Source: Candidatus Woesearchaeota archaeon (lineage in GTDB: Archaea > Nanobdellota > Nanobdellia > Woesearchaeales > GW2011-AR4). From it: DNA of 52,937 nt. Every line of letters starts with the position of its first letter. Position 1 is the first letter of the stretch. Shown here in pieces: positions 17,060 to 35,978 of this stretch. A model generated the notes under the pieces. It ran no database searches and was not told where the DNA came from. It worked only from the letters and a program-made list of their open reading frames with translations. The position numbers and the translations under genes are program-made. The DNA lies in NCBI GenBank assembly GCA_016181305.1, contig JACOZN010000013.1:79691-132627 (forward strand), written 5' to 3'.

Positions 17060-17081
17060 CCACCTTTTCTTTTTCTTGCTT

Positions 17082-18676: not shown

Positions 18677-18701
18677 CCATTTTCTTTATCTTTAATTTAT
18701 T

Positions 18702-18795: not shown

Positions 18796-18798
18796 TTT
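18783..18798 (+). repeat. attL core (16 bases)
   Basis: CCCCGCAGGGGCATTT covers T-stem 3' strand, acceptor 3' strand, discriminator and three trailing T. Identity with attR stops at both sides of this 16-mer. It begins one base after the 3' splice site of the T-loop intron. Confidence 0.88.
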
Positions 18799-18852
18799 GT
18801 TTTTCGGTTAAATGCCGAAACGGGTTTTGGATATTGGTTTTTAGTTGTTGGT

Positions 18853-19944: not shown

Positions 19945-20007
19945 GTGTGTTTTCAGCCACAAAGCTTTTATAATTATTAACTATATTTTTTAATCTGGTG
20001 ATTTATT

Positions 20008-20547: not shown

Positions 20548-20661
20548 AAGAAGTTCTTTCTTTTTCCTTTTCAAATTTCATTTCAGAAATAGAAACCTTA
20601 TACCAATTTCTTCAATACCTTTAAATACTAGTTTTGTAAGAATAATACATTGGTGGGTGGT

Positions 20662-21033
20662 ATGTCAGATAACAAAGAAATCCATGAATTTGTTAATGGT
20701 GCTTTAAAGCAAATTAAAGATGCTATTCCAGAAGGTTACAAGCTAAACAATCAAATCAACTTTGATATTTCTGTAACCACTTTAACTAGGGCAGATGGTA
20801 AATTTGATATAAAATTAGCTGGATTTGGTATGACTTCAAATAAACAGCAAGTGCATAGAATCAATTTTTCTGTAATAGATGAAAAATCACAAAAGGAGTC
20901 TATTCAAGAAGGAATTAACGCATTTGAACTTTTCATTAAGCAAATAGCTACGGTAGACGCTCAAATGAAAGCACAAAAAGCTAAATCTGCTAAAAAAATA
21001 GCTGTAAAGACAAATGGCAAAAAAGGAAATTAA
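20662..21033 (+). CDS. Trypco2-like domain protein
   Basis: The 123-residue protein begins with a helix (EIHEFVNGALKQIKDAIP). A strand-rich core follows (INFDISVTTL, KFDIKLAGFGM, VHRINFSVID) that matches the layout of the trypsin-co-occurring domain 2 family, known from bacterial conflict operons. A Lys/Ala-rich tail ends the protein. The assignment rests on pattern memory and is tentative. ATG 20662 with GGTGGT upstream is chosen over TTG 20650. The next two genes overlap it and each other, forming a tight three-gene operon. Confidence 0.5.
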   Translation: MSDNKEIHEFVNGALKQIKDAIPEGYKLNNQINFDISVTTLTRADGKFDIKLAGFGMTSNKQQVHRINFSVIDEKSQKESIQEGINAFELFIKQIATVDAQMKAQKAKSAKKIAVKTNGKKGN

Positions 21034-21256
21034 AGTATTTTCGTATGAGCAAGTGTATAAAGAATACTATGTCAGTTTTATAGCGGGTCTTATTGGAGGA
21101 TTATCAGCATTGACATTTAGCTATGTTATTCCATTAGCAATTAAGGGTGATTGGAAAGGGACATTTATAGGTTTTTTAGTATATGTTATAGGTGCTTTAC
21201 TTACTTTTATTGTCGGATTTTCTGTAATAAAGAAAGTTTTTGTTAAAGATGAGTGA
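21014..21256 (+). CDS. Small membrane protein, two helices
   Basis: I do not recognise the family. The 80-residue protein has a short charged N-terminus, two membrane segments (residues ~20-40 and ~50-72) with Gly-rich faces, and a basic end. It overlaps the trypco2-like gene by 20 bases and the next membrane gene by 8, so the three are translationally coupled. A pore or membrane-effector role is only a guess from the context. Confidence 0.6.
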   Translation: MAKKEIKVFSYEQVYKEYYVSFIAGLIGGLSALTFSYVIPLAIKGDWKGTFIGFLVYVIGALLTFIVGFSVIKKVFVKDE

Positions 21257-21527
21257 TGGAGATAAAAGAATAAAAACTGCATTACAAATTTTCATAGCTG
21301 GTGCAGTTATACTTGCATTACTTGGTGCAGGAACAAAGATAATGAATTTTTATACAGAATTTGGGACATCAATACTAATAAGCATAATCTTAACAATCAT
21401 TGCAGAACTTATTGTCATTAGATTTGGTGGAGAATTTCTTAAACAACATCATATTACAATTTGGGGATTTAGAGTTTCAGTATTCTTTATATTGGTGATA
21501 TTAGTTAAATACTTGGTATTAAGTTAA
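21249..21527 (+). CDS. Small membrane protein, three helices
   Basis: This 92-residue protein of unknown family has three membrane segments (residues ~12-28, ~36-55, ~70-90). ATG 21249, overlapping the stop of the previous gene, is chosen over TTG 21240. It is the last gene of the trypco2-like operon and converges, with a 4-base overlap, on the membrane protein gene at 21524-22399. Confidence 0.6.
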   Translation: MSDGDKRIKTALQIFIAGAVILALLGAGTKIMNFYTEFGTSILISIILTIIAELIVIRFGGEFLKQHHITIWGFRVSVFFILVILVKYLVLS

Positions 21528-22399
21528 ATTTTATTTTTATTGTCCAGCCATTTCATAAATAATTCTATTATGATGGCATCATAAACCGCTACAGCAGAAA
21601 TTGCCAAAATAAAAATATCCAAAATTTTTAACCAAAACAACCACCAGTTACTTTGCGGACTAAATCTGATAAAAACTTTCGGACTATTAAATTCCCAACT
21701 TTTACTAAATCCTTTAAATATTTGAAAATCTTTTTTGATATCCCCATCAATAATAGTAAAGCAATTTTCATCGCATGTATAGCCATTCAAAAAATCTGAA
21801 TTATAATTAAAATTAAGTTTGTCTAATTTACTTGCACCTTCAATATTTAGCATGTAATAGGAATAGAATGTAGATTTAATATCTGCAATTATCCCAAAAC
21901 TGTAAGGATCGTTGTCTATCATTTTGCTTAAATTTATTGTTAAATATACCATTCCTTCAGATAAATTTACCACATAAGTGTAGTTTAATTTTTCTGGATT
22001 GTAAACACTCCACCTCTTTAATTCAGATATTTTAAAAACAGGGTATCCATAGCTGGCAAGCTCTTTTTCGTTACAATACTCTTTACGTTTTTGGAAAAAA
22101 GTATATATTGATGCAGTGTTGGTTTTATAATCAATACTAACAGATGGTTCACCTATATAAAAACAACTGCTTTTAACGTTAGCTTGATAGGTTGATATTA
22201 AAAACCAATCATAATTCGTGGGATACAGTTTTTCATTATAAATCCAATTTGATGTTATAATATACAGAATAAAAAAACCAAACGCTATACCAAGTAAAAA
22301 TGATATTTTAACCCAATTTATGTCATAATTAGGTTTTTGATTATCTTGGTTCTTCTTGTTAACTTTCTTAATCTGTTTTGTTCTCTTATTAGAAGCCAT
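21524..22399 (-). CDS. Membrane protein with large extracellular domain, unknown
   Basis: I recognise no family. The 291-residue product has a Lys/Asn-rich cytoplasmic start, a membrane helix at ~31-50, an extracytoplasmic region of about 190 residues rich in Tyr, Asn and strands with four Cys (two in TCDENCF), and a second membrane helix near ~252-275 before a basic end. The two-helix plus ectodomain layout suggests a sensor or surface protein. The gene is very AT-rich and typical of the element. Confidence 0.55.
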   Translation of the reverse strand: MASNKRTKQIKKVNKKNQDNQKPNYDINWVKISFLLGIAFGFFILYIITSNWIYNEKLYPTNYDWFLISTYQANVKSSCFYIGEPSVSIDYKTNTASIYTFFQKRKEYCNEKELASYGYPVFKISELKRWSVYNPEKLNYTYVVNLSEGMVYLTINLSKMIDNDPYSFGIIADIKSTFYSYYMLNIEGASKLDKLNFNYNSDFLNGYTCDENCFTIIDGDIKKDFQIFKGFSKSWEFNSPKVFIRFSPQSNWWLFWLKILDIFILAISAVAVYDAIIIELFMKWLDNKNKI

Positions 22400-22558
22400 A
22401 ATGTAGGAAATTGTGGATAAGTTTAAATTACTTATTCTTTTATTTTCGTCCTTCCCATAAGCTGATAATCAAATCTTTTCCAGCAATTCCTTCTTTTTTT
22501 CAAATTTTAGAAGAAACTTTAATAAACTAACTATATACTAAATAGACTGGTGTAAACT

Positions 22559-23476
22559 ATGTATTATAGATTATTGATATTTTTAACAAATGCTGGAGAG
22601 AACGTAGATAAAATTAAACTCAAATTTGGGTTAAAAATAAAAGAAGTTTCAGAAGAGGAAGCAACAGACCTCTACGCCACTTTAGAAAAAACAGATTTGT
22701 ATAGGGCTGGAAAAGAATTATTTATGGATTATCATATAATTAATAGTAAACACAAAGCTTATTACATTACTAAAAGGATTAAAATTTCTGATGAAATTAG
22801 AGACGAAATGTCAAAATTTAATGAATTTGGCAAAATACAAAGACAACTGATAATGGGTTATTTAGATCCATTGATTATTAAATTAAGATTATTTAAAGAA
22901 GGTTATATTGGTTATCATAAATACTATTTTTTTGGAGAAAAAACTAAAAGTTCATTTACAGGGATGACTTCCCCTAATCATATAACAAGAGGCAGTAAAA
23001 TTTATGAATTAAATGATTTGAATGAAATTAAAAGACTTAATAAATTTATTAAAAAAGTTAAGGATTTGCCAAAAGATGGTCAGCTTAAAATAGCTTTAGA
23101 TAATTTTCAACAATCTTATGATTCAGTCAGTATAGAATCTGCATTCTTGAATCTAATGATTGGAATAGAATCATTATTCTCTAAAAGCACCATAGAATTA
23201 TCTTTTAGATTAAAGAGAAATTGTGCAATTTTTTTGGGTAGAACCAAAACAGAATGTTTGGAAATTTACAATAAAATGAAGGAATTATATGATATAAGAA
23301 GTGTTTTAATTCATGGTAAAAAATTTAAGTTAGAGCCAGAACAAGTTTTTATATTAAGAAACTATGTAAGAAAGTCTATATTAGGGTTTATAGAGATTGA
23401 TAGGAATCATGACCAAGTTCTTGATGAACTGGATAAATTAGGATTTGGGGATTATACAAAAATAACAGATAATTAA
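22559..23476 (+). CDS. Apea-like HEPN-domain protein
   Basis: The 305-residue protein has an N-terminal region of ~170 residues without recognisable motif. The C-terminal HEPN domain of Apea type shows AFLNLMIGIESLFSK, LSFRLKRNCAIFLGR and the YDIRSVLIHGKK motif, where R-x4-H is the HEPN catalytic pair. Such proteins are typical of anti-phage or abortive-infection loci, probably cutting RNA. It stands alone with its own promoter, and its stop overlaps the convergent SHOCT gene by 4 bases. Confidence 0.7.
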   Translation: MYYRLLIFLTNAGENVDKIKLKFGLKIKEVSEEEATDLYATLEKTDLYRAGKELFMDYHIINSKHKAYYITKRIKISDEIRDEMSKFNEFGKIQRQLIMGYLDPLIIKLRLFKEGYIGYHKYYFFGEKTKSSFTGMTSPNHITRGSKIYELNDLNEIKRLNKFIKKVKDLPKDGQLKIALDNFQQSYDSVSIESAFLNLMIGIESLFSKSTIELSFRLKRNCAIFLGRTKTECLEIYNKMKELYDIRSVLIHGKKFKLEPEQVFILRNYVRKSILGFIEIDRNHDQVLDELDKLGFGDYTKITDN

Positions 23477-23853
23477 ATACTTTTAAGTAATTCCTTCTTT
23501 TTCTTTTCAAACTCTGCTTTAGAAATAGCTCCTTTGTCCTTTAATTCTTTCAATTTTGCTATTTTGGAAGTAGCATCTTCTTGTGGCTTAACTCCATGCT
23601 TATGGGTATCATAAAACATTGCTTTATTGTATGCTTGATACATAGTTCCCCAACCCACAATAAATACAAATACAGCAATGCCAATCCTCCATCCAGTGCC
23701 TAAATTTACTCCAAAAATTCTGGCAAGTGGTCTAAGTAAATCAACCACAAGCCATTTATCAAAAAAGTAAGTTACAACTGCTGAAACTACTAAGAAAATA
23801 CCCACCATCATAGTTTCTTTTTTCTCTTCTGGTGTTGATTCTTTGGTTTTCAT
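23473..23853 (-). CDS. SHOCT-domain membrane protein
   Basis: The 126-residue protein has two membrane segments (roughly residues 15-34 and 55-75) and a C-terminal SHOCT motif (IAKLKELKDKGAISKAEFE). SHOCT is a short oligomerisation element found next to many membrane and enzyme domains. ATG 23853 is chosen because AGGGGAG stands before it and it shares its A with the stop of the upstream lipoprotein gene (TGATG). The two genes form an operon. Confidence 0.75.
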   Translation of the reverse strand: MKTKESTPEEKKETMMVGIFLVVSAVVTYFFDKWLVVDLLRPLARIFGVNLGTGWRIGIAVFVFIVGWGTMYQAYNKAMFYDTHKHGVKPQEDATSKIAKLKELKDKGAISKAEFEKKKKELLKSI

Positions 23854-24482
23854 CAAATCTCCCCTCTTGCTTGCATATCTGCATAATCTGGAAATGCACT
23901 GTAACAATAATATCTGAATGTGCTATCTTCTTTTACATACTCTTCAGGAATATTTTTGCAGACTGTTTTATCATTAGTTTTTTGTGCAAAATTATAATAA
24001 CACTCTTTACGGATATATTTGTTATTACCATATTTAGTTTGACATATTGAAGAAACTGAAGAATCTTTTTTTACTACTGAATATTCTATGTAACATTTTA
24101 TCACATAATCTAAAATAGCAAAATTAACCCATTCATCTCTAATTTTGTAAGTAGTAATGAAAGCGGGGTCATTACTGCTTGTCATTTGATACGACTTTGT
24201 CATTGCATCACAAAACTCTGGATTATTATATTTAATTGCTAAATCAGAATAACAAGCAACAAGTTGATTAGTTTCTGAGTCATAGCAGTCTTCCGCAATA
24301 TCTATTATTTTTTCTTCGCTTAAAGTTTTAGTTTGTTGTTGGATAGAAGTAGAAGCTGTTTTTGTTGATGTAGCTACTTCACTTTTTGATTTTGGCGTAG
24401 TTGTAGTTTTCTCTATTGTTTGTGTTTGAGCACAGCTACTAATCAAAAATAGTGCCAATACAATAAAAATGGTAAGTTTCAT
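23853..24482 (-). CDS. Cys-rich secreted lipoprotein
   Basis: The 209-residue product has a signal peptide with lipobox (FLISSC), a Thr/Ser/Lys-rich spacer (residues ~20-55), and a helical domain with about nine Cys spaced as in small repeats (AEDCYD, VACYSDLAIK, PEFCDAM, IKCYIEY, SICQTKYG, KECYYNFA, TVCKNI, YYCYSAF). The repeated Cys-Tyr context suggests disulfide-bonded helical repeats outside the cell. Function is unknown. It is the first gene of a two-gene operon with the SHOCT protein. Confidence 0.65.
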   Translation of the reverse strand: MKLTIFIVLALFLISSCAQTQTIEKTTTTPKSKSEVATSTKTASTSIQQQTKTLSEEKIIDIAEDCYDSETNQLVACYSDLAIKYNNPEFCDAMTKSYQMTSSNDPAFITTYKIRDEWVNFAILDYVIKCYIEYSVVKKDSSVSSICQTKYGNNKYIRKECYYNFAQKTNDKTVCKNIPEEYVKEDSTFRYYCYSAFPDYADMQARGEI

Positions 24483-24568
24483 TGTTGATATGCCCTTATT
24501 AAATTTAATAGTTAACCGATAGGTAATGGATAGGTTTCTATATAAAAAGTTTACTATGAACAGAAGTT

Positions 24569-24829
24569 ATGAGTTGGGAGAAGTATAGTTTTGTGAAATA
24601 TGCACCATTACGCTCTGAAGTTCTAAAAATATTGGATACAGAGAAAACACCAAAAGAGATTAAGGATGAGTTACATAAATCCGATTCCAATGTAGCAAGG
24701 GCATTAAGGGAATTAACTAAAAAAGGGCTTGTCAAGTGTTTAACACCAAAAAGCAAGAAAGGTAAGATTTATGTTTTGACTAAAGAAGGTAGAGAAATAA
24801 GAACTAAACTATTGAAACAAAGTTTATAA
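24569..24829 (+). CDS. Winged-helix DNA-binding regulator
   Basis: The 86-residue protein is a single winged helix-turn-helix domain. The recognition region is TPKEIKDELHKSDSNVARAL, followed by LTKKGLVKCLTPKSKKGKIY as the wing and a final helix. It resembles the small archaeal HTH regulators common on plasmids and integrated elements. It likely controls the genes on either side: the lipoprotein operon starts 86 bases away in the opposite direction and the 58-residue gene follows. Confidence 0.8.
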   Translation: MSWEKYSFVKYAPLRSEVLKILDTEKTPKEIKDELHKSDSNVARALRELTKKGLVKCLTPKSKKGKIYVLTKEGREIRTKLLKQSL

Positions 24830-24853
24830 ACTTCATAATTTATTCTGTAAAAT

Positions 24854-25030
24854 ATGGACACTCGATTACTTAAAATTCTGGAAGAAGAAACAGCTAAAGA
24901 GAAAGCCAAGAAGAAAAAGAAACCTATATTTGAAGTCAGAAAGGAAAAAAGACTGAATTATTATTTTGGATGGCATAAAGGAAAACCGCTAGAAGAAGGA
25001 AAGACGGAAAAACAAACAAAGCTTGATTAA
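24854..25030 (+). CDS. Small charged protein (58 aa), unknown
   Basis: This short gene encodes a 58-residue, highly basic protein with a K-rich core (KEKAKKKKKPIFEVRKEK), an aromatic NYYFGWHKGKPL patch and an acidic/basic tail. The ATG lies 24 bases after the HTH gene. Possible nucleic-acid binding is inferred from charge only. Confidence 0.5.
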   Translation: MDTRLLKILEEETAKEKAKKKKKPIFEVRKEKRLNYYFGWHKGKPLEEGKTEKQTKLD

Positions 25031-25094
25031 TTTTTTCTAGATTACTTTTTCTCGTTAAATTTATATAAGCGAGCATTAACTAGGTATTGGTAAA

Positions 25095-27224
25095 ATGGTT
25101 GACGAAGAAAGTGGCACAATTCTTAATAAACTAGGAATATTGCCAAAATATGAACTAGTCCACCTAGTTAAAAAAATATACAAAAATGACAAGCAAGGTC
25201 TAATAAATATCATTTATTTAGTAACTTCAAAGAAGATAAGAGAGCCTTTTAATAAAATAAATAATTTTAATGCAGAAACTTTACTAGGACTTCTATCAGA
25301 AACTAAGGATTTGCCTATTGATTTGATTGATGAACTATATTATGAATATAACCAAACAAAGAACCCTTCACTATACTTCTTTGAAATTCTTGATTTTAAA
25401 GAATCTAATTTTTTAAAGTCAGGAGACAAAGATAAAGAAAAGTATTTTATTGACAAAATTAATTACATTAATCCAACTTTGGTTCTTAAAAGCAGACCTC
25501 AATTTAAAAATTTTAGCTTAGGAAGCATACATACAAAATCTAACATTATAGAAATAGAGTTGGATTTTCAGAGTAGAATTGATTATGTTGACCCTAAAAC
25601 TAAATTACCTAAACATATTTACTCTCTACATGAAGGGATAATATGGATTTCCAAAGACCATAAATCAATAGTAATAAAGGTTGATTCTTCGGATGTTAAT
25701 AAGATTTTAGTTAAGATTCTACAAAACTTATTAGAAAGTAAAGTTGTTAAGTTTAATTTAACAAAGGAAATAGTTAATGAAATTTTTCCTTTTGAAACAC
25801 TAAGAAGAGCAGGTTACATTGAGCCAGAATTAGGTGGTAAAAAATTTACTGAAAGAAAAACATTAGCAGATAGGCATTATTCAGACAAAGATGAAAGCAA
25901 AGAAACAGACGAAAGATGTGATAGACTTTATTCGTATCATAAAATTTCTTTAAATGAATTAGAAGTGGGAACAGCTGTAAGTGAAAAAGGAAAAATAACA
26001 CTCAATAGGCACATAAAGAGATCTGAGCTCAAATTATGGTCTCTTACCCTAATAAAAGATATTATTAGACATATGAGCCACTTAAAAAAAGAACAAATGT
26101 CTAAGTATCTTAACGGAATAGACAAAGATTCCATAATAGAACTAGATGAATTAACTACAAGCACCGCAAAGGAAAATTTATGTCATATTGCAGTTGCTGT
26201 AAGTAGCTTGAAAGAAAGCAATGAGGCTCAGATACAGACAAATCTTACTAGTCTTGAATTGTTTAATACTTTGAGTGAATATTTAATTCCAATATTTGAA
26301 CCAAGTTGTGTTGATTGTGGTGAGAATAGTTATACCTGCAATAATTGTGGAGAACTTAATTCTGCAGTCATAAGGAAAGGCTCAATAAAAATAAAATGTG
26401 ATGGATGTCAAAAGGAAATAAATAATTTAGCTGAAGATATAAAATGTCCAAATGATTCGAATCATAAAATTGATGGAACTATAGAAGAGAACGTATCTTT
26501 TTTCTCTACGAAAAAACTTTTTGAACTATTAAATAAACTTTCACGAGTATTAGAAATGGGTTTAAATTTGACTGAAATGGAAATTTTAAAAATTAAAAAT
26601 AGGATTATTTATTACAAACTCTCTAACAATAAAACCCTTTATCTAATGGATATGTTACCTTCATTTGCATCAATAACAAAAATAGATAAGATACCAACAA
26701 ACGTATTAACAACCCAGTTAATAAATTTGAAATATGCAAAAGAGAAATGCAACGTATACAGTGATGTAAACTGTCGGGATTGTATTATTTCTCAAAAAGG
26801 ACTTTGTATTCAAAGATTAGTAGGTAGCTTTACAAAAAATACTAGACTACATAGTCATTGTGGAACTGAGTTTGGCGACATATCTTTTGTAGAGAATGTA
26901 GATGGAAATAATATTACATTGGTAGGCTTAGCAAAATCTGACTTAAAAGTCTATGATAAAATGCTTACGCTTCGAAATGGCAAAGGTTCTAATTTATTTG
27001 CTCAAGCTTATGACGCATTGGCAGATAGCAGAATCAATTTTATAGCAATAATTGCAACAGCGATATTGCATGAAAAACTCAGAGAATCCTTAATACAGAT
27101 TACAAAATGGAACAATAAAAGGATTACTTTTATTGAAAAACCTGAATTAGTTAGGATGGTTTATGATTACATAGAAAAAATAAATCAAGGAAACTCAAAT
27201 TATCATTTTTGGGAAATTGTATAA
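25095..27224 (+). CDS. Large zinc-binding protein of unknown function, possible nuclease
   Basis: I recognise no family for this 709-residue protein, the largest on the element. Residues ~1-330 are helical and then strand-rich. Residues ~405-460 hold zinc-ribbon-like Cys groups (CVDCGENSYTCNNCG; IKCDGCQKEI; IKCPND). A further Cys set (CNVYSDVNCRDC...GLC) lies at ~560-580. After it comes LHSHCGTEFGDISF with LVGLAKSD some 12 residues on, and a helix-strand end. E...GD followed by a Lys in a strand recalls PD-(D/E)XK nucleases, but the acidic residue before the Lys is missing. It has its own promoter (TTTATATAAG) and stands beside regulators and HEPN-type genes. Confidence 0.55.
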   Translation: MVDEESGTILNKLGILPKYELVHLVKKIYKNDKQGLINIIYLVTSKKIREPFNKINNFNAETLLGLLSETKDLPIDLIDELYYEYNQTKNPSLYFFEILDFKESNFLKSGDKDKEKYFIDKINYINPTLVLKSRPQFKNFSLGSIHTKSNIIEIELDFQSRIDYVDPKTKLPKHIYSLHEGIIWISKDHKSIVIKVDSSDVNKILVKILQNLLESKVVKFNLTKEIVNEIFPFETLRRAGYIEPELGGKKFTERKTLADRHYSDKDESKETDERCDRLYSYHKISLNELEVGTAVSEKGKITLNRHIKRSELKLWSLTLIKDIIRHMSHLKKEQMSKYLNGIDKDSIIELDELTTSTAKENLCHIAVAVSSLKESNEAQIQTNLTSLELFNTLSEYLIPIFEPSCVDCGENSYTCNNCGELNSAVIRKGSIKIKCDGCQKEINNLAEDIKCPNDSNHKIDGTIEENVSFFSTKKLFELLNKLSRVLEMGLNLTEMEILKIKNRIIYYKLSNNKTLYLMDMLPSFASITKIDKIPTNVLTTQLINLKYAKEKCNVYSDVNCRDCIISQKGLCIQRLVGSFTKNTRLHSHCGTEFGDISFVENVDGNNITLVGLAKSDLKVYDKMLTLRNGKGSNLFAQAYDALADSRINFIAIIATAILHEKLRESLIQITKWNNKRITFIEKPELVRMVYDYIEKINQGNSNYHFWEIV

Positions 27225-27412
27225 ATATTTTATGGGTTACTTGTTGAAAAAATTTCTATAAAAACATGGTGCACACGTTTGGCAGACATAGGTAGATAAA
27301 AAATACCCCACCCCCATGAGCAAACTTTTCTCATCGATATACTACAATCCATAGATTATAATCCATTTTATCGACTACGAGTGTGTTTATATACTTCAAT
27401 ACCACTGATTTC

Positions 27413-27470
27413 TTGGGTTAAAAAAAGTTGGCAAAAGTTCCGCTAAAGACCAATTGCCAACTTTACCCAA
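27413..27470 (+). promoter_or_regulatory. Long hairpin in the 5' leader of the small-protein operon
   Basis: AAAGTTGGCAA (27424-27434) pairs perfectly with TTGCCAACTTT (27454-27464). TTGGGT (27413-27418) pairs with ACCCAA (27465-27470), giving a 17-bp stem with one 5-base bulge and a 19-base loop. A TATA-like TTTATATAC (27387-27394) lies about 20 bases before it, so transcripts should begin at the hairpin. It could protect the mRNA, control expression, or be an element origin structure. Confidence 0.6.
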
Positions 27471-27500
27471 TAACAACCACGAATGGAGGTATTAGGTAAA

Positions 27501-27884
27501 ATGGGAACAAAGAAACAGAATATAAAAACTTTGGCATCGAAAGATGCTCAACCAGAAAGAGGTGAGATTGAAAACAGAGTCGTTTTTACCCTATATTGTA
27601 AAGACGTTATTGATGGGATCAAGAAACAACTTGCCAAAAAGCCAATGGCAATGAAACAGGCAGTGGTAGTTTCTTTATTGTTGGTAGATGAACCAACCAG
27701 AAAAGAAATTCTTGAATTGGTCCGGGAAAACAAGAAGTTTGATAAAACATTGGAAGGTTTTATCACAACCAATAAGAAGAAGATAATGGATTTCTTCCAG
27801 AACCAAAAGGACAAGACAAGCACAACAGCTGTTCTAAAACAAAGAATAGCCGAACTCGAGGCACAGGTTGGTGATAAAAAATGA
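27501..27884 (+). CDS. Small helical protein with C-terminal coiled coil, unknown
   Basis: The 127-residue protein has a basic N-terminus, a helical middle (DVIDGIKKQLAKKPMAMKQA; EPTRKEILELVRENKKF) and a C-terminal coiled coil (AVLKQRIAELEAQV). ATG 27501 is chosen because GGAGGT stands 10 bases before it; an ATG at 27483 overlaps that site. It starts a three-gene operon (ATGA overlap with the next gene). A role in plasmid maintenance or replication control is possible from size and context only. Confidence 0.55.
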   Translation: MGTKKQNIKTLASKDAQPERGEIENRVVFTLYCKDVIDGIKKQLAKKPMAMKQAVVVSLLLVDEPTRKEILELVRENKKFDKTLEGFITTNKKKIMDFFQNQKDKTSTTAVLKQRIAELEAQVGDKK

Positions 27885-28015
27885 AAGAAACCACCAATTA
27901 CCCCAATTCTTTGGAGCAAGTCCAAGAATTGATGAAGCAACACACCAAAGAAGCTTACCTGAAAAGATTAGCCAAAATTGGTGTAATTGTGAGGGATAAA
28001 AATGACAACCGATAA
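27881..28015 (+). CDS. Very small protein (44 aa) in overlapping operon
   Basis: The ATG overlaps the previous stop (ATGA), and the stop overlaps the next gene's start by 14 bases. The 44-residue product is helical and basic (LEQVQELMKQHTKEAYLKRL). The tight overlaps on both sides are the main support. Confidence 0.5.
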   Translation: MKETTNYPNSLEQVQELMKQHTKEAYLKRLAKIGVIVRDKNDNR

Positions 28016-28232
28016 GTGTGCTTGCGGAAACGACAAAGAAGATTGGATGGAAGTCTGTAAGCAATGCTATGCAAAGAATAAAGGCAACAAACCAACATCA
28101 AAGAACAAAGATAAGGAAATAAAAAGACAAGTTTTCTTAAAAATTGCCAGCGAACAACTGAAATCCCAACAACCAAAGGACTTGGTAAGCTATGCACAAA
28201 GCTTGGAAATTGAATTTAACAAATGGGCTTAA
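28002..28232 (+). CDS. Small zinc-finger protein
   Basis: The 76-residue protein opens with a four-Cys zinc knuckle (KCACGND then VCKQCYAK), a Lys/Asn linker and a C-terminal helix pair (LVSYAQSLEIEFNKW). Such small zinc fingers are common on archaeal plasmids and probably bind nucleic acid. It is the last gene of the operon, followed by T-rich sequence (28245-28257) that could terminate transcription. Confidence 0.65.
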   Translation: MTTDKCACGNDKEDWMEVCKQCYAKNKGNKPTSKNKDKEIKRQVFLKIASEQLKSQQPKDLVSYAQSLEIEFNKWA

Positions 28233-28307
28233 TTGCCCATTGTTTTTTCTTTTTTGATTTTGATAAGAACAAAAACTATTAAATACCTATGATTAACCCC
28301 ATAATTT

Positions 28308-29021
28308 ATGTTAAAGAAAACCCTAACAGCAATTGCAATAGTAGTATCTATAGTCGCATTTATATTTCTGATAGGTTGGGTAATATCAAGTCTAACTGCT
28401 AATGAATATAAAGATAAAGCAAAGTCTTATGATGACTTACAAAATGAACTTACCCTTTGTCATGGAAATTTGACTCAAAAACAATTACAGTATAATAACT
28501 TACAGAAAGTAAAAGACACGGCTATTGATGCCTTGACTAAAGACAAAACCGAACTAAATAACAATTTACAAAATTTAGGTCAGGAACTTGATTCTTGCAA
28601 CAAAACCCAACAAGGGAAAAATCTGGAGATAGGAAACCTAAAAAATAAATTAACTAACTGTACTTCAAATCAGCCAAATGTGTCCAATAATTGCCCAGTA
28701 GCATTAAGCCCTGCTCCAAGTGATAAAACCATGTTTTTTGGTAGCGTCATGGATGTTTCAACTATAAAAATTATTGGTACAATATCAGTCATAACCCTTA
28801 TAACTTTATTAACAATCCCATTTTCACTTGCATTTACTATTAATTTAAAGATAGGTGTAGTAGTGAGTTGGTTTATTGCAAATGCCCTTACTGTTGCTGT
28901 TCAAATTATTTTAGAAGTAATAGAAGCAGATTTGGATTTTAAAATCAGGTCGTTAATCACAGTTGTAGTGTTCACAGTTATCTTTGCTTTATTTGCTTAT
29001 GCAACAAGAGACTGGGATTAA
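28308..29021 (+). CDS. Membrane protein with extracellular coiled coil
   Basis: The 237-residue protein has an N-terminal membrane helix (residues ~7-30). A coiled coil of ~85 residues rich in Asn, Gln and Lys follows (DLQNELTLCHGNLTQKQLQ; LQNLGQELDSC), with four or five Cys. Three membrane segments occupy ~150-232. Family and function are unknown. The TATA-like TTAAATACC at 28278 gives it its own promoter. It meets the next gene tail to tail with no gap. Confidence 0.55.
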   Translation: MLKKTLTAIAIVVSIVAFIFLIGWVISSLTANEYKDKAKSYDDLQNELTLCHGNLTQKQLQYNNLQKVKDTAIDALTKDKTELNNNLQNLGQELDSCNKTQQGKNLEIGNLKNKLTNCTSNQPNVSNNCPVALSPAPSDKTMFFGSVMDVSTIKIIGTISVITLITLLTIPFSLAFTINLKIGVVVSWFIANALTVAVQIILEVIEADLDFKIRSLITVVVFTVIFALFAYATRDWD

Positions 29022-29786
29022 TTATTGTTTAAGTACTTCTTTTTCGTTTTCTTTATTTTTTTGAGCTTCGTAGTGTTTCATCAAAGCTTTATTCTCATCA
29101 TCAATATCTTTTTTAGTATAAACAATAGCTTTAATTCTATGAATTCCTGAAGTTAGCAAACTAATATCATGCTTTATACTATCAATACCTTTAGCAATAG
29201 TATGTAGAGGTGGATCTCCCAATTGTTGCAACCCAATCAATTCTGAAAAATCAATCGTGAATTTTTCCTTATAATCATTATCATCTTTATCTTTATAATC
29301 AACCTTAATATCAAAGCTAGATTTGAACTTTTCTTGAGGATTTTCAGCAAGACTGGTAAGAAAGAACTGTAGTTTTTGATTGGGTGCTAAATATTTTATT
29401 CCATTTTTAATAAAGTTCTTATCGGATAACAAATGTCCCTTTTTTAATTCCAAATTTTTACTAATTTCAAACTTAATATCATAAGCTGGTCCAGTTCCTA
29501 TATTCCTTATGACCATATCAATAAAATTAATCCATTCTTCTCTTGGTTGAATTATTATCGATATATTAGGCACCCTTTGTGATTCTCTCATCTGTCTTGT
29601 TTCATCGACAAGTCTCCATGTCAGGATGGAATATGTCAAGCTGGACAGTGCCACAACAGATGTAAATATTAACATCAAAGTTCCACTGTTTTTGTTTAGA
29701 AACTCTGAATATTGCCAACTACTTATAATCAGCACAGCTAACAAAAACAGAATAGTTATGAATATTGATTTATCTTTCATATACAA
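29022..29786 (-). CDS. Membrane-anchored protein with Ig-like strand region, unknown
   Basis: Two membrane helices (residues ~7-24 and ~36-58) are followed by a cytoplasmic strand-rich domain with the segment VIRNIGTGPAYDIKFEI. That segment is a motif I associate with a widespread set of uncharacterised bacterial and archaeal membrane proteins. A basic-acidic helical tail of 60 residues follows. No enzymatic motif is seen. A TATA-like TTTATAAAC lies 25-30 bases upstream on the reverse strand. Confidence 0.55.
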   Translation of the reverse strand: MYMKDKSIFITILFLLAVLIISSWQYSEFLNKNSGTLMLIFTSVVALSSLTYSILTWRLVDETRQMRESQRVPNISIIIQPREEWINFIDMVIRNIGTGPAYDIKFEISKNLELKKGHLLSDKNFIKNGIKYLAPNQKLQFFLTSLAENPQEKFKSSFDIKVDYKDKDDNDYKEKFTIDFSELIGLQQLGDPPLHTIAKGIDSIKHDISLLTSGIHRIKAIVYTKKDIDDENKALMKHYEAQKNKENEKEVLKQ

Positions 29787-30263
29787 ATATCAATATTTTG
29801 TCCTTTATAAACGTTATTGGAAAATTTAGCCCATTTTTAGCCAGTCACTAACCCTAATGAAAATGCCTAATTTTGTCTCTTTGGTCTTATAACAAACCCA
29901 AAAAATTGTTCTGTTTTGTAGTCGGTAGTGTTTAAGGCATTTGCTAATCTTTTAAGATAGGTATCATGCCTTAATGTTGTAGAAGCACGGATATTAACCA
30001 CTTTTTATTATTTTAAGCTATTTTTGCCCTCTTTTTCGCTAAATGGTTGAATCATACCACCCTATCGGATATCGTTGAAATTTGGGCGAGATGGCTATAT
30101 TTTCATAGGTAAAATTATCGTTAAAATTTAAGATTTTAGGGAAATCAATTCCTTCACAATTTCAATTTTAAGCTTTTTATGGCATTATTGTCCTATACCA
30201 ATTTTTGACATTAAAATAAATCATACAGGCAAGAATGTCCAATGGTTAAATTATATTGGAAGT
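29787..30263. other. Gene-free 477-base stretch in the element with dyads
   Basis: No supported open frame is found on either strand. It holds a perfect 9-base inverted repeat, TTAAGGCAT (29932-29940) and ATGCCTTAA (29966-29974), around an inner ATCTT/AAGAT pair. The rest is AT-rich, with the promoter of the 29022-29786 gene at its left end. It could hold a replication origin or a non-coding RNA; nothing more can be supported. Confidence 0.4.
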
Positions 30264-31451
30264 CTAAAGATATTTGCGAGTTAAGGAAACTAAGAATGCA
30301 CTAGACACTATAATTCCTAAAAATCCTTCAAAAACTGATAGTAACTTAGTTATTCCAACTGGGACTATTTCACCATAACCTATAGTTGTGAATGTAGTAC
30401 CTGAAAAATATAGTGAATCCATAACATCCAAGCCATTAACCAACTCTTCATTAATACTGAAATGTGATATTGGCAGTAAATAAATCAAAGTAAACAAAGA
30501 ATATAATATAATCGCCATAAAAAGAATTCTAATTGGTTTAAGTAAAGCACCAGTAATTCGCAAAATATACTTCAAAAATTTTCTTTTATTCGCTAAAATA
30601 GTTTTATAATATTTTAATTTGTTAAAAATATCTTTGTTATCCCTAATTGTTGTGTTTTTCTCAATGAAATTTATTGTATCAAAAATATAAGAATGAGACA
30701 TATTATCAAGATTTTGTTCTAGGTTTGTTGAATCTCTAAACAAGAATAAATTAAAACCATCTCTTAATTTTAGATATTTCTTGTTTCTTTTATAATCATC
30801 TATCGTGTAATACCCTAAATTTTCATAGTTAATTTGGTTATAATCAAAATAAACCTTTTCAGTTTTTAATTTCACAAATTTTACAAATGAGAAATCGTTA
30901 TCATAAGTCATAAATTGTTGAATAATATTTTCTTCTAATTCGAATTTGAATATACGACTACTGTGGATACCCATGCGTAAAATGCTCGATAATCTTATAT
31001 TCACATCGCTTGCATTTAAACTAATTATTGATAAATCATCAGTTTCAACTAAACGGACTATATTTAGCCTACCCTTGATTATACAGTTATCTAGTGTTAC
31101 ATTTTTAAGATTATTTGTTTTATCCCCTATTGTTAAGTTTCCAAGTATAATACAATTTTTAAATTTTATTTGGATTGAATTTTGTAAAGATATACTACAC
31201 ATTATTACTGAATTTTGAATTTCTACAATTGGTTCGTGATATCTATCCTCACCATCCAATCCCAAATCAGATTTATTGAGTGTTTTAAAATCTGGTCTTG
31301 TTTGAAGTAATTTCTTTAATTGTCCATCAAAATTTTTCTCATAGTCAATTCTATGTTCGGATACTATTTTACTAAGGTATATGGGTAGTTCTTCTTCCAT
31401 TAATTTAGGAAGTAAAGGATTCTTTAAAATTATTTCCTTTTTCTCCTTCAT
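30264..31451 (-). CDS. Two-helix potassium channel with repeat-like N-terminal region
   Basis: The last ~95 residues of this 395-residue protein form a two-helix ion channel: helix 1 (FMAIILYSLFTLIYLLP), a pore helix (MDSLYFSGTTF), the potassium selectivity filter TTIGYGE, and helix 2. The N-terminal 170 residues show repeated hydrophobic-x-x-C/N strands (SISLQNSIQIKFKNCIILGN, VTLDNCIIKGRLNI) like a beta-helix or pentapeptide-type repeat. A helical linker lies between. Known relatives on mobile elements are channels with repeat domains; regulation by the repeat domain and a role in membrane depolarisation are inferred. Confidence 0.8.
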   Translation of the reverse strand: MKEKKEIILKNPLLPKLMEEELPIYLSKIVSEHRIDYEKNFDGQLKKLLQTRPDFKTLNKSDLGLDGEDRYHEPIVEIQNSVIMCSISLQNSIQIKFKNCIILGNLTIGDKTNNLKNVTLDNCIIKGRLNIVRLVETDDLSIISLNASDVNIRLSSILRMGIHSSRIFKFELEENIIQQFMTYDNDFSFVKFVKLKTEKVYFDYNQINYENLGYYTIDDYKRNKKYLKLRDGFNLFLFRDSTNLEQNLDNMSHSYIFDTINFIEKNTTIRDNKDIFNKLKYYKTILANKRKFLKYILRITGALLKPIRILFMAIILYSLFTLIYLLPISHFSINEELVNGLDVMDSLYFSGTTFTTIGYGEIVPVGITKLLSVFEGFLGIIVSSAFLVSLTRKYL

Positions 31452-31895
31452 TTTTTACTTTCATAATCTTATGTTTTACCATCATCGGAAAACAATCCAA
31501 AGTCAAATTATCTATCCCAACATCTTTTAATTCTCCTTAAAGAAATTCATTTATACAAACGAGGCAGAAGATAGCTACTATTTGGTTTCTGAAAAATTTT
31601 CTGTAGATAAAAGATGAACAAGTCCCTTTTTGTGCGTTATGGTACGAAAAGGCAAAATTAAACGTAAATTGGAGGATTGACACCTTTATAGCGACGAATC
31701 AACAATTTAAGCCAAAAAGTATCACTGCGTGTGGTATCTATAAGGTAGGTATTTGTCTAAACATATACACAAAAATCCCCCTAATTTTCAAGATAAAGTA
31801 TTTATATAACCTCAACCACATATACATGTATATAAAAAAAGAAGCAAAAACCTCCAGTTTATTGCTGTTGGTTGCTTTCTTTAGGTATACAAAAT
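31452..31895. other. Gene-free 444-base stretch with an RNA-type hairpin
   Basis: No supported gene is found. At 31625-31652, CCTTTTTGTGC and GTACGAAAAGG can pair over 11 positions as RNA (two G-U pairs) around a 6-base loop. A GGAGG motif (31671-31675) has only a tiny frame nearby. TATA-like TATTTATATAAC (31799-31810) probably serves the Sm-like gene. A small RNA is possible but unproven. Confidence 0.35.
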
Positions 31896-32117
31896 ATGTT
31901 TGATAAGCTATTAGGAAAGTCAATAAAGTGCGTTTATGTTGATGGAAACCAGCATAAAGCTATTTCTGGATTACTGAAAGACCAAAGCCCTAGTTTTGTA
32001 ACCATTTTTACGAATCAAGGTCAATATTTCTATGTCAAAGTTCAAGCTATAACAAGCTTGTATGAAAAAATAAGTGTGTTTGGAGGAAAACAAAATGGCG
32101 GAGTTATTCGAAAGTAA
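31896..32117 (+). CDS. Small Sm-like protein
   Basis: The 73-residue product (ATG 31896) has the helix plus five-strand look of an Sm/Hfq-type domain: FDKLLGKSIKCVYVDGNQHK, AISGLLKDQSPSFVTIFTN, GQYFYVKVQAITSLYEK. If right, it could bind RNA or regulate element genes. The sequence match is weak and short. Its end overlaps the candidate replicase gene by 23 bases, so the two are co-translated. Confidence 0.45.
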   Translation: MFDKLLGKSIKCVYVDGNQHKAISGLLKDQSPSFVTIFTNQGQYFYVKVQAITSLYEKISVFGGKQNGGVIRK

Positions 32118-33417
32118 AGAAGAAAATTATCAACCTTATACCCAAAATTTCTACAATCCTTTCATTTGGACAAAAAACTATTCAAAGGTTAATGGTATAG
32201 TAGAAGTTCTGTTAAAATTGGAGAAAAGCAGGGTAAGGAGAAATGTCTCAATGTACGTGGTTAATCTTATCCTGAACAATGGCAAAGTAGCAGTCTCGAG
32301 AAGTAAAGGATGGTTTAACAATCACCCAAATTCTAGATGGCATACTTACAGAAGTGCAATAAAATCTCAGGATTTATTGCAAGAATTAGGATTTGTAAAG
32401 ATTAGTAGGGGTTATAGAACTGCGGGATTTAGTAAAGGGTTCAGCTCTACCCTTGAAGTGACTGATAAGTTTAAAGTGGTATTCTTAAAGGAAGACATAA
32501 AGAAAGAGATAATTAGTAGTAGATTAGAAGTTGATGTTAGTAACCTATATGACATATTAGTGGATAGTAATGGTTACAAAGGGGTAGGAAGTGATAGGGA
32601 GAAAGCCATATCTATGGATAATATAGGCAAAGAGATTACTACTGCATTACAGTCCCATTTTCTTAAAAAAGGTTTAGAAGACGCTTTAAGGAACATGTCA
32701 AAACTAAATACAGAGCTTTTCAGTAAAATTACGCTTGGTTTTGATGATGGAAGGGTAACCAACACTATTTCTAATGTTTATCTTACAAGGATATTCAAAG
32801 AAGATGGTTGTGGAAGAATTTACCAGCAATACGCTTCAAGCTACCAACAATTACCAAAAGAAGATCGAAAGCACCTAACTATCAATGGTCTAAAAACTGT
32901 TGAAGTTGATTATTCTAACCTTCATATTAATTTGTTATACCACAAAGTAGACAAGGATAATCCAGTTGAGGATTCTTATATGGCTATTGTTAAGGTATTA
33001 TTAGGAAAACCTGACCCAGAAATTAGAGAAATAATAAAATTATACATTATCATTGCAATCAACGCAAAAAATTTTCGTTCTTCTGTTAGTGCCATGAATT
33101 TAAAACATTCCAAAATGGTTAGGAAATTAAAGGAAAAAAACATTAAATTTAAAGATATTATTAATGCATTTGGTAAGGTTCATCCAGACATACAAAAGTT
33201 TCTTAATAGTAATATTAGCTTTGAATTGATGCTAAAAGACAGCACTATTCTTGAAAATGTTTTATTAAGACTCAATAAAGAGGGCATATTGGGACTCCCC
33301 TTGCATGATAGTATTATTTGCCAAAAAGGGTTTGAAAGAAGAGTTAAGGAAATTATGATAGAAGAGTATAAGAACTACACTAGACTCTCTATAACTGTTA
33401 AAATATCAGCAGAATAA
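32095..33417 (+). CDS. Candidate element replicase with family-A-polymerase-like palm motifs
   Basis: The 440-residue protein (ATG 32095 with GGAGG 9 bases before) begins with a helical, winged-helix-like region (residues ~25-125). Its second half contains KHLTINGLKTVEVDYSNLH, similar to polymerase A motif A (DYS-x-x-E/H), a Lys/Arg/Asn helix (IKLYIIIAINAKNFRSS) where motif B would be, and GLPLHDSII, similar to motif C (VHD). The same LPKE...ING...VE-DYS-LH...LPxHDS pattern occurs, as I recall, in unnamed proteins of bacterial plasmids and phages. DNA synthesis for element replication is inferred. Archaea normally lack family A polymerases. Confidence 0.5.
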   Translation: MAELFESKEENYQPYTQNFYNPFIWTKNYSKVNGIVEVLLKLEKSRVRRNVSMYVVNLILNNGKVAVSRSKGWFNNHPNSRWHTYRSAIKSQDLLQELGFVKISRGYRTAGFSKGFSSTLEVTDKFKVVFLKEDIKKEIISSRLEVDVSNLYDILVDSNGYKGVGSDREKAISMDNIGKEITTALQSHFLKKGLEDALRNMSKLNTELFSKITLGFDDGRVTNTISNVYLTRIFKEDGCGRIYQQYASSYQQLPKEDRKHLTINGLKTVEVDYSNLHINLLYHKVDKDNPVEDSYMAIVKVLLGKPDPEIREIIKLYIIIAINAKNFRSSVSAMNLKHSKMVRKLKEKNIKFKDIINAFGKVHPDIQKFLNSNISFELMLKDSTILENVLLRLNKEGILGLPLHDSIICQKGFERRVKEIMIEEYKNYTRLSITVKISAE

Positions 33418-33430
33418 AAGGTGATAAAAC

Positions 33431-33784
33431 ATGCAAGACGAACATAAATTAAACATTTACAACGAGGCTTATGCTTTAAGCTTGGATATTTACAGAAAAA
33501 TAAAGTTTCCTGACAAAGAAAAATTTGGAATGGAACAGCAAATAAGAAGGTCTTCTATGTCCGTTTCTTTAAATATTGCAGAAGCGTGTGGCAAAGATTC
33601 TCAAGCTGACTTTAAAAGATGTTTGTATATCTCTATGGGTAGTTTGAAAGAAACAGAAACACTGATAGATTTTGCCAAAGATTTAAGTTACATTTCTTCT
33701 GGACAGCACAAAGAATTTAAAGACAGAATAACTACATTAGGAAAGCAAATAAACAGCTTAATTCAAAAAATAAAGGAGGGCTAA
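33431..33784 (+). CDS. Four-helix bundle protein, 23S rRNA IVS (S23) family
   Basis: The 117-residue protein matches the S23/IVP four-helix family: LNIYNEAYALSLDIYRK, FGMEQQIRRSSMSVSLNIAE, then GSLKETETLIDFAKDL. Members are encoded in rRNA intervening sequences and on mobile elements and form pentamers; their biochemical role is unknown. It is the last gene of the element, 13 bases after the candidate replicase and about 50 bases before attR. Confidence 0.88.
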   Translation: MQDEHKLNIYNEAYALSLDIYRKIKFPDKEKFGMEQQIRRSSMSVSLNIAEACGKDSQADFKRCLYISMGSLKETETLIDFAKDLSYISSGQHKEFKDRITTLGKQINSLIQKIKEG

Positions 33785-33809
33785 CAACCAATAGCCACTA
33801 ACCAACAGC

Positions 33810-33834
33810 TTGGGTTGATTACCAATCAAACCCA
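33810..33834 (+). terminator. Inverted repeat beside attR
   Basis: TGGGTTGATT and AATCAAACCCA form an imperfect dyad (one extra A) around ACC. It ends right at the attR core. It could end transcription of the S23-family gene or be an integrase arm site. Confidence 0.4.
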
Positions 33835-33835
33835 A

Positions 33836-33851
33836 CCCCGCAGGGGCATTT
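33836..33851 (+). repeat. attR core (16 bases)
   Basis: CCCCGCAGGGGCATTT is identical to 18783-18798 and is an orphan copy of the tRNA-Arg 3' end. Its last two bases lie in the stop codon of the pirin gene on the opposite strand. Confidence 0.88.
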
Positions 33852-34557
33852 AACTCATCGGTACTTCAATTAGAAGAATTTTTGAGTCTTTTAACGTTTT
33901 TAAATTGATTTTATTTGTGATGATAATCTCAGCAGAATCACCCTTCTGTAGCTGGTATTTATCAATAGTAATCTCTCCATCAATCACAAAAACACAAATA
34001 CCATGCTTTTGGTTATGAATCTTATACACTACTCTTTTATTTTTGTCAAAATTTCCCATTAAAAAATAAGCATCTTGATGAATGTAAATCATGTCATTAT
34101 TCTTTTTTCCTGAAACAACCTCAACAAGTTCATTTTTCTTCAAATCCAGCCTTTTCTGCTCGTAGCTAGGATTTATGTTTCTTTCTTTTGTCAGAATCCA
34201 AATCTGCAGAAAATGCACTCTTTCCTTGGCTGAGTGATTGAACTCGGAATGCCTTACTCCTGTGCCAGCAGACATTCTTTGTATTTCACCAGCTTTTATT
34301 ATGTCATGATTGCCCATGCTATCACGATGCTCCAGACTTCCTTCATGAACTATAGAAACAATCTCCATGTTGTCATGGAAATGCATGCCAAACCCTTTTC
34401 CCGGCTCGACAATGTCGTCGTTAAGAACTTTTAATAAGCCAAATCCAATTCTTTTTGGATTGTAATAATCGCCAAAGCTGAACGAGTGTTTGCTGTGTAG
34501 CCAGCCAAGCTCTGTTGCACCTCTTTCCTCAGCTTTGTGGATAGTTATCCTAATCAT
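33850..34557 (-). CDS. Pirin family protein
   Basis: The 235-residue bicupin begins IRITIHKAEERGATELGWL. Metal-binding residues typical of pirins are present: GMHFHDNMEI (H-x-H), HEGSLEHRDSMG and AGTGVRHSE. Pirins bind Fe and some act as quercetin dioxygenases; the substrate here is unknown. ATG 34557 is chosen over an upstream Met because homologues start at this strand and it then follows the UBP gene by 4 bases. Its stop codon overlaps attR, so element insertion left the gene just intact. Confidence 0.9.
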   Translation of the reverse strand: MIRITIHKAEERGATELGWLHSKHSFSFGDYYNPKRIGFGLLKVLNDDIVEPGKGFGMHFHDNMEIVSIVHEGSLEHRDSMGNHDIIKAGEIQRMSAGTGVRHSEFNHSAKERVHFLQIWILTKERNINPSYEQKRLDLKKNELVEVVSGKKNNDMIYIHQDAYFLMGNFDKNKRVVYKIHNQKHGICVFVIDGEITIDKYQLQKGDSAEIIITNKINLKTLKDSKILLIEVPMS

Positions 34558-34561
34558 AGAA

Positions 34562-34810
34562 TTAGACATAAGCTTTGTCAACATAGCACCATTTCCAGTC
34601 CTGCCCGCTGATTGATTTTATTATGGGGTGCTTTGTTTTCTGGAAATGCTTTGTTGCATGCCTGTTTTTTGAGGAATCGCAGCAGCCAACATGCCCGCAT
34701 GACAAGCACAATCTTAACTCCACCCATTTGTCGCCTCTCTTTAAGCACTCTTCGCATCCGCTAGTTTTCGGCTTGACATCTTTTATTTGAGCTAAATGGC
34801 TGCATTCCAT
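34562..34810 (-). CDS. UBP-type zinc finger protein
   Basis: The 82-residue protein is a single UBP-type zinc finger: SGCEECLKRGDKWVELRLCLSCG is its core (CxxC...CxxC), followed by GCCDSS, the H-x-x-KH-x-x-x-x-KH pattern and a terminal WCYVD. In eukaryotes this domain binds the ubiquitin C-terminus. In prokaryotes it occurs as a stand-alone redox- or pirin-linked protein of unknown role. It lies between the flavin reductase and pirin genes in one operon. Confidence 0.9.
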   Translation of the reverse strand: MECSHLAQIKDVKPKTSGCEECLKRGDKWVELRLCLSCGHVGCCDSSKNRHATKHFQKTKHPIIKSISGQDWKWCYVDKAYV

Positions 34811-34816
34811 AAAAAA

Positions 34817-35380
34817 TCACTTTGCATGCTTTTCAATGATTATTTTTATCCTTTCCAATTCTTCCTGCGGTGGCTTTGGTATGTTTTCCCCAATCTTCCA
34901 GTATTTAACTTCGTGGTAAGCAAGCGGCTCTTTGCTTTTGTTTAAAGATGCTTCAATCACTTCTCCGACAAGCATCACATGGTCGCCAAGCTTAATTTCC
35001 TTGAACAACTTACACTCTAAGTTAAGTACAGCGCCTTCAACCATTAGAATATTAATTTTTTTGGCTTTATAAAACTTAAAGCTGAGCTCTTTTAAAGCAC
35101 TAACCTTGTCAACATTCTTTCCAGAACTGCCGCCTGCAACGCTTGCCAAGACATTTTGGTCGGTTGCTGCTATGCTGACTCCAAACTCTTTGGTATTTTT
35201 TATGTTTTCCAGAGTGGCTTTATTGTGGCCTATGCATACAGCCACCAAGCCAGGGCTATAGGAAACATGGTGAGTCCACTCGGCAGACATTATATTGTCG
35301 CCGTAAGGACCATTGCTTGTGACTAACCCAACATTTGTTATAAATTGTACAGTTTTTTCATCTCCCCATGGCAAATCCAT
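34817..35380 (-). CDS. Flavin reductase-like FMN-binding protein
   Basis: The 187-residue protein belongs to the flavin reductase-like split-barrel family. Features are VGLVTSNGPYGDNIMSAEW, SPGLVAVCIGHNKATLENI and FGVSIAATDQNVLASVAGG. It likely binds FMN and passes electrons from NAD(P)H to flavin or a partner. ATG 35380, one base after the nitroreductase stop, is chosen over an earlier codon inside that gene. Together with nitroreductase, UBP finger and pirin it makes a redox-stress type operon. Confidence 0.87.
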   Translation of the reverse strand: MDLPWGDEKTVQFITNVGLVTSNGPYGDNIMSAEWTHHVSYSPGLVAVCIGHNKATLENIKNTKEFGVSIAATDQNVLASVAGGSSGKNVDKVSALKELSFKFYKAKKINILMVEGAVLNLECKLFKEIKLGDHVMLVGEVIEASLNKSKEPLAYHEVKYWKIGENIPKPPQEELERIKIIIEKHAK

Positions 35381-35381
35381 T

Positions 35382-35978
35382 TTATTGCAGTACTTCAAAC
35401 ACGTCTTTATAGTCAAACCTCAGCTTTTGCTTTTGCTTGTCTGCAGCATATCCTATCGGGCACAAGGCTGTCGGGACCAAATTCTTCGGAAGCTTAAGAA
35501 TTCTTGCATATTCTTTTGGATCAAAGCCTTCCATCGGGCACGAGTCAAATCCAAGCGCCTTTGCGCCATTAAGGGCGTTTCCCAAAGCAAGGTAAACCTG
35601 CCTTTGCGCCCATGAAAGCTTTTGCTCTTCACTCAGGCTTTTATCAAAGCCCCGCATAATGTCTATGTATGCAGTGCTTGCTCCAGCTTTATTCATCAGC
35701 TTCTCAAGCTTATCTATATTGCCGGCAATGTCCTTGTTTGCGCAGAAAACCAGCAGATGTGAGCAGGATTCTATCTGCTTTTGATTCATTGACACAGGAG
35801 TCAGTTTTTCTTTAAGCTTCGCATCTGTTATTACTTTTATCGCCCAAGGCTGTATGTTGAAAGAGGAAGGTGAATACCTTATAATCTCCAGCAGCTCATT
35901 GACTTTGGATTCCGGCAGTTTTCTTCCGTCAAACAGCTTTGTTGCGTACCTTTCCATTACTATGTCCATGAAATTCAT
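35382..35978 (-). CDS. Nitroreductase family FMN enzyme
   Basis: The 198-residue oxidoreductase has the nitroreductase fold: ERYATKLFDGRKL at the start, the SPSSFNIQPWAIKVI FMN-binding loop, and the GFDSCPMEGFDP and PIGYAADKQ segments. It resembles NfsB/YfkO-type NAD(P)H reductases, so quinones or nitro compounds are possible substrates. ATG 35978 has AAGGTGG before it. It opens the four-gene operon down to pirin. Confidence 0.9.
   Translation of the reverse strand: MNFMDIVMERYATKLFDGRKLPESKVNELLEIIRYSPSSFNIQPWAIKVITDAKLKEKLTPVSMNQKQIESCSHLLVFCANKDIAGNIDKLEKLMNKAGASTAYIDIMRGFDKSLSEEQKLSWAQRQVYLALGNALNGAKALGFDSCPMEGFDPKEYARILKLPKNLVPTALCPIGYAADKQKQKLRFDYKDVFEVLQ

Follow-up and report, generated by a model that had tools for sequence, protein, structure and literature searches.

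The gene at positions 32095-33417 (forward strand) of the stretch of archaeal DNA analyzed here (52,937 nucleotides, the window) encodes a 440-residue protein of archaeal origin that, judged by its sequence, belongs to the recently named divPolA2 family. We think it probable that this protein is a minimal family-A polymerase of an integrative element, used for accessory DNA synthesis and not as the main replicase. The family itself was already known; what is added here is the occurrence of a divPolA2 member in an archaeal mobile element.

The gene and its family

The reading frame starts at ATG 32095, with GGAGG 8 bases 5' of it, and its stop codon ends at 33417; the longest ORF for the gene starts at GTG 32074. 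The gene is present in a single copy in its own genome (1.07 Mb, 78% complete). The window also encodes CarS (CDP-archaeol synthase) and an ATPase of the Cdc6 type, both of which support an archaeal origin. Two domains were recognized, a putative winged-helix front at about residues 45-122 and a family-A palm with fingers at about residues 230-440. An earlier note, made from the DNA alone, had placed PolA motifs in this frame, and they were found there in order: motif A, DYSNLH, at residues 272-277 (32908-32925); the motif B helix, from R311xxxK315 to N323-A324 (33025-33066); and motif C, LPLHDS, at residues 401-406 (33295-33312), all on the forward strand. In the light of the alignments described below, this motif reading is more than chance.

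The divPolA2 family was first described in 2024 in tailed phages (Yutin et al. 2024, Virol J 21:200, PMC11348598), and the name is used in both the preprint and its journal version. The whole archaeal protein matched phrog_4756 (function not assigned) end to end with an E-value of 1.7e-44, and the published divPolA2 representative, AUR84708, matched the same group over its full length (1.8e-91). Our family HMM (A6) matched AUR84708 at 1.2e-39, and a BLASTP comparison of the archaeal protein to AUR84708 gave 7e-8 over 193 positions, as a single-pair E-value. An HMM built from 41 relatives, with the archaeal protein left out, recovered the archaeal protein at 6.7e-56. The protein shares with AUR84708 (Vibrio phage 1.063.O) its PHROG, its length, a family-A palm, an N-terminal globular domain, and the lack of an exonuclease and a Pol I thumb.

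For the 440-residue protein, none of the Pfam, NCBIfam, and PADLOC families reached its cut-off. In particular, PF00476 was not matched by the archaeal protein at E<=1, by the 42 family members at E<=0.1, or by anything in the protein's own genome. Because PF00476 itself is unmatched, the case for kinship with Pol I is built on the fold, the motifs, and a single profile-profile comparison of moderate strength (probability 57). Other candidates were tried and set aside. The earlier note had named a clear match to a recombination or transposition family as evidence against a polymerase; none was seen in the family searches, and the fold is that of a polymerase palm. NBD94 gave a weak match (0.0011, below cut-off) in one of the 42 members, and the PDB sequence hits to a capsid and a catalase had E-values of 1.1 and 3.1. 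An anti-phage defense system was rejected, as there was no PADLOC match and integrases are commoner than restriction-type genes as neighbors in the bacterial loci. On reading the loci, some bacterial members do lie near restriction-type genes.

Relatives are scattered. A search with the single protein matched one of 59 genomes, its own; a 12-row profile matched 3 of the 371 genomes of the archaeal phylum, the own genome included. Among Pseudomonadota, 24 of 398 genomes had a match, and a tblastn search returned 25 phage records and one plasmid. Scans yielded five loci in genome contigs and 4, 1, and 49 in viral contigs; single-protein scans of the viral contigs found no relatives. The resemblance to phage and plasmid proteins that the earlier note had pointed out is therefore borne out by the relatives seen in phages and in mobile elements of bacteria. 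Its suggestion that the protein would be new for this group holds in part: the family had already been published as divPolA2, but in the literature searched, including the accessible part of PMC11348598, we found no divPolA2 in archaea or bacteria.

The scan patterns included RFYGG[WF]W and LP[IV]HD[SA]F[IL]; viral frames were accepted by HD[SAE], and bacterial frames by HD[SA] plus the GR motif. Conservation at these positions is partly built in because the patterns contained them, whereas D272, H277, R311, K315, and N323 lie outside the selection patterns. Two fragments (L085, L086), repeats of one contig or of near-identical contigs, and L065 from A8 were left out, and the N-terminal piece from genome G184 was excluded from column counts.

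In a tree from a quick search only, which does not show the archaeal members nested inside a phage group, the archaeal protein (P0001) grouped with the archaeal G184 sequence (support 84) and with the long-branched G164 sequence (67). The G184 relative (L031:8431-9821) is split over two frames of 322 and 146 residues in a stand-alone chromosomal setting; a sequencing error, decay, or a programmed shift might each account for the split. The G164 relative (L032:1961-3136; 391 residues) is very divergent and lies among housekeeping-type genes. Isolates of Vibrio phage ICP1 (L274, L280) carry one or the other of two very different divPolA2 proteins, with 41.7% identity to AUR84708 over the full length in some isolates and 26.4% over half of it in others.

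Palm, sugar pocket, and front domain

An AlphaFold2 model from 42 sequences had a mean pLDDT of 80.6, with values of 89-98 for the 10-residue blocks from residue 261 on. In a Foldseek search against the PDB, Pol I enzymes were the top matches (best E 6.4e-7), so that the fold comparison with Klenow-type palms called for in the earlier note returned a family-A palm. VIA-align gave Z-scores of 15.1 (8.8 A, 353 residues) and 14.9 (3.8 A, 260 residues) for yeast mitochondrial RNA polymerase, 14.7 (5.0 A, 273 residues) for apPol, 13.9 (4.2 A, 269 residues) for Bst, 13.9 for Taq, and 13.3 for T7 RNA polymerase; Z differences under 1 are ties, and the absence of other families from this list carries no evidential weight. 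The A6 profile searched against PDB sequences found only three weak chains, with E-values of 0.12 and up.

The profile comparison with PolA suggested in the earlier note had a mixed outcome: PF00476 was not matched, but 66 family rows compared to 26 Pol I rows aligned over 198 columns with an E-value of 1.1e-4, and the reversed controls gave 0.63 and 0.52. In this alignment R241, Q251, R258, D272, R311, K315, and H404-D405 fall on motif residues of Pol I; R241 (of the GR motif), Q251, and R258 are Pol I-like features beyond those the earlier note had listed. The reduced PolA-type palm that it proposed thus agrees with the confident model of the C-terminal half, which matches both Pol I and mitochondrial RNA polymerase, and with the motif-by-motif alignment. 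The palm, the GR motif, and motifs A, B, and C are in the same order and register as in Pol I (Klenow; Bst, Taq, apPol). In contrast to Pol I, the archaeal protein has no PF00476 match and shorter fingers, and in the model it is without a 3'-5' exonuclease and a Pol I thumb, the latter as read from length and secondary structure.

Residue numbers and roles of Pol I (D705, D882, E710 as the steric-gate Glu, and Y766 as the O-helix Tyr) and of T7 RNA polymerase follow common usage. The profile alignment places D272 at D705 and H277 at the E710 position, and together with the column counts it places N323 at the Y766 position and D405 at D882. D272, R258, K315, and D405 are present in 73 of 73 aligned members, and R241 and R311 in 72; the exceptions are a Pro at R311 in one row of the alignment and a Lys at R241 in ICP1_a. 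In the 42-row alignment D272, R311, K315, and D405 are invariant. The mean column identity of the family is about 20%.

The steric-gate Glu and the O-helix Tyr of Pol I are replaced by H277 and N323 in the archaeal protein. Across the 73 rows, the E710-aligned position is His in 56, Glu in 5, Gln in 4, Gly in 2, and Asn, Ile (the G164 relative), Met, Phe, Tyr, and Trp in one each, while the Y766-aligned position is Asn in 64, Phe in 4, Tyr in 3, and Ala and Cys in one each. Phe and HDA accompany the gate residue in every row where it is Gly, Met, or Tyr; two rows with the Glu/Tyr pair carry FDE or YDE, and three further rows combine Glu with Asn. AUR84708 is of the Glu/Tyr type with FDE, whereas the archaeal protein has His/Asn with HDS. 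This covariation may reflect a coupled change at the sugar pocket, though the rows are related to one another. His and Asn at the sugar-selecting positions argue against an ordinary dNTP-only pocket.

These residues bear on whether the protein could be an RNA polymerase or primer maker, a small relative of the T7 and mitochondrial RNA polymerases that would transcribe element or phage DNA into short RNAs. Mitochondrial RNA polymerase had the highest Z, in a tie with Pol I within 1 Z; motif C reads HDS in 40 of the 42 rows, which is the form of T7 RNA polymerase when aligned; and the gate position holds His and not Glu in 37 of the 42. However, the family profile matched T7 RNA polymerase at only 0.0089 and over motif C only, a poorer match than that to Pol I; this test has little reach for T7 RNA polymerase, because the control pair of Pol I and T7 RNA polymerase scored 0.83. 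The archaeal protein is half the size of the T7-type enzymes, and no matching N-terminal domain was seen. The distance from motif B to motif C is 90 residues, against 181 in T7 RNA polymerase by residue numbers; this leaves little room for a promoter-specificity loop. The accessible part of PMC11348598 leaves the same possibility for the phage proteins and mentions no polymerase activity for them. We consider an RNA polymerase unlikely, but give it a real minority chance.

A single-subunit enzyme capable of both priming and extension is distinctly improbable in our judgment. Here the His/Asn pocket would take rNTPs as well as dNTPs, the winged helix would read a site on the element, and no separate primase would be needed.

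Modeled alone from 41 sequences, the front domain had a pLDDT of 90.2 and consists of a long helix followed by a strand, two helices, and two strands. Its Foldseek matches in the PDB were mostly winged-helix proteins, with a best E-value of 6.5e-3 and none under 0.001. A winged helix is the most likely fold of the front half, in keeping with the earlier note, which had described it as winged-helix-like. In PMC11348598, the N-terminal domain is described as without detectable similarity, and the word "winged" does not occur; the predicted archaeal domain differs from that account in its winged-helix-like form.

The winged-helix front, and the variable residues at the gate and the O-helix, would also fit a relative that is inactive or regulatory, in which a dead palm serves as the frame of a DNA-binding repressor. 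We hold this to be very improbable: 72-73 of 73 members retain the metal-binding Asp residues as well as the Lys and Arg that bind the nucleotide, in spite of the low mean identity of the family.

An element integrated at a tRNA-Arg gene

The polymerase gene lies near the right end of an integrated low-GC element of 15,053 bases (18783-33835), which is without counterpart at the tRNA-Arg site of the sibling genome G005. The element is flanked by two copies of a 16-bp direct repeat, CCCCGCAGGGGCATTT, attL at 18783-18798 and attR at 33836-33851. attL forms the 3' end of a gene for tRNA-Arg(GCG) (18701-18796, forward strand), the attachment site; this gene carries a 21-nt insert in its T-loop, and ARAGORN calls it only after the insert is removed. 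An Rfam search at the site found nothing. A tyrosine recombinase (Phage_integrase, PF00589, 3.3e-19) adjoins the tRNA gene at 18775-19944 on the forward strand; its true start is probably later, because the first codons of the ORF overlap the att site. Between about 20 and 34 kb, most 2-kb windows have a G+C content of 27-33%, against about 41% in the surroundings.

In G005, whose neighboring helicase is 95% identical, an intact tRNA-Arg gene directly joins the flank that starts near 35415 in the window; the element and two genes beyond attR are therefore absent there. The left and right flanks were close together in 7 of the 18 sibling genomes with loci examined; for the others, this arrangement was not seen in the stretches retrieved, most of which included 1.5 kb of flank. 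The DNA of the element had no match in any of the 18 loci. With an integrase, repeats that overlap the 3' end of a tRNA gene, and an empty site in a relative, this is a tRNA-integrated archaeal element.

The two genes beyond attR (33850-35416) are pirin-like and flavin-reductase-like by reading; because they are also missing in G005, the site appears to have taken up more than one insertion. Related integrases of two other genomes (G016:C1:154-1242, 45% identity; G009:C65:21342-22349, 28%, with a stop) are located beside the same helicase. The tRNA-Arg/helicase site may be an integration hotspot. The insert in the tRNA-Arg gene is in the T-loop in the window and in G001; in G005 and G002 it lies, by reading, close to the anticodon loop (L139, L140, L146); since its position differs among these genomes, tRNA introns appear to move within the genus. 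The helicase itself (17076-18638) is a C-terminal half (Helicase_C, Helicase_dom4_arc) without the ATPase N-terminal half (loci L119-L138). This half was matched in 19 of 20 genomes of the genus, mostly as a frame of 519-544 residues; in G016 it is in two pieces 1.5 kb apart within one frame of 1056 residues, as an intein-like insert would give.

Within the element, a 73-residue ORF (31896-32117, forward strand) overlaps the polymerase start and has a weak resemblance to DUF2642, below cut-off. A four-helix-bundle protein is encoded 13 nt 3' of the polymerase (33431-33784, forward strand) and matched 23S_rRNA_IVP and, more weakly, a bAvd-like family. Avd proteins are partners of reverse transcriptases in diversity-generating retroelements. 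We found no phage relatives of this four-helix protein. A 709-residue protein (25095-27224) has Cys-rich, zinc-ribbon-like stretches; it had no Pfam match and no relative in the other genomes of the 371 searched.

Accessory synthesis or replication

The earlier note had proposed that the protein is the replicase of the archaeal element. The element encodes an integrase, and the scan of its ORFs recognized no replication protein besides this one; the host genome has no PF00476 protein, and PF00476 was found in none of the five IMG/VR records with the family, which may be fragments. The phages point the other way. All 10 phages with the small protein have a separate PF00476 match in frames of 768-1108 residues, 6 of them over the curated cut-off. 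The bacterial copies are scattered, the protein lacks an exonuclease and a thumb, and the 709-residue zinc-ribbon-like protein could be the initiator of the element. For the barbaviruses, the accessible part of PMC11348598 likewise regards divPolA2 as additional to the regular polymerase. A tyrosine or serine recombinase was present in the stretch read in 15 of 23 bacterial loci, compared to 7 of 55 viral and phage loci. Taken with the phage counts, this is more in keeping with a mobile accessory polymerase than with a replicase, and we regard the replicase proposal as improbable.

For the accessory polymerase that we favor, the C-terminal 210 residues would form the palm and shortened fingers. 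The two metals would be bound at D272 and D405 and the triphosphate at R311 and K315, and R241 would lie on the primer/template side. The winged-helix front would probably either hold DNA in the place of the thumb or bring the enzyme to a DNA site. We infer that the protein is active and that its product is DNA, in which case it would make short, template-directed stretches in gap filling, end repair, or repair after integration. In phages, divPolA2 proteins are extra to a regular polymerase; the archaeal protein differs from them in being carried by a tRNA-integrated element.

The DNA polymerase families described for archaea are B, D, X, and Y, according to the part of PMC4104785 consulted. 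Against these, the element carries a family-A-type polymerase, of a type otherwise described from bacterial viruses as an extra polymerase and with only scattered relatives in related archaea. The family is thus wider than the published phage set, extending to Pseudomonadota and to the archaeal phylum in the numbers given above. Were the enzyme both to prime and to extend, a minimal priming polymerase would be common to archaeal elements, phages, and bacterial islands. The unusual pair of residues at the sugar site makes the question of a DNA or an RNA product one that could be answered with a single small protein.
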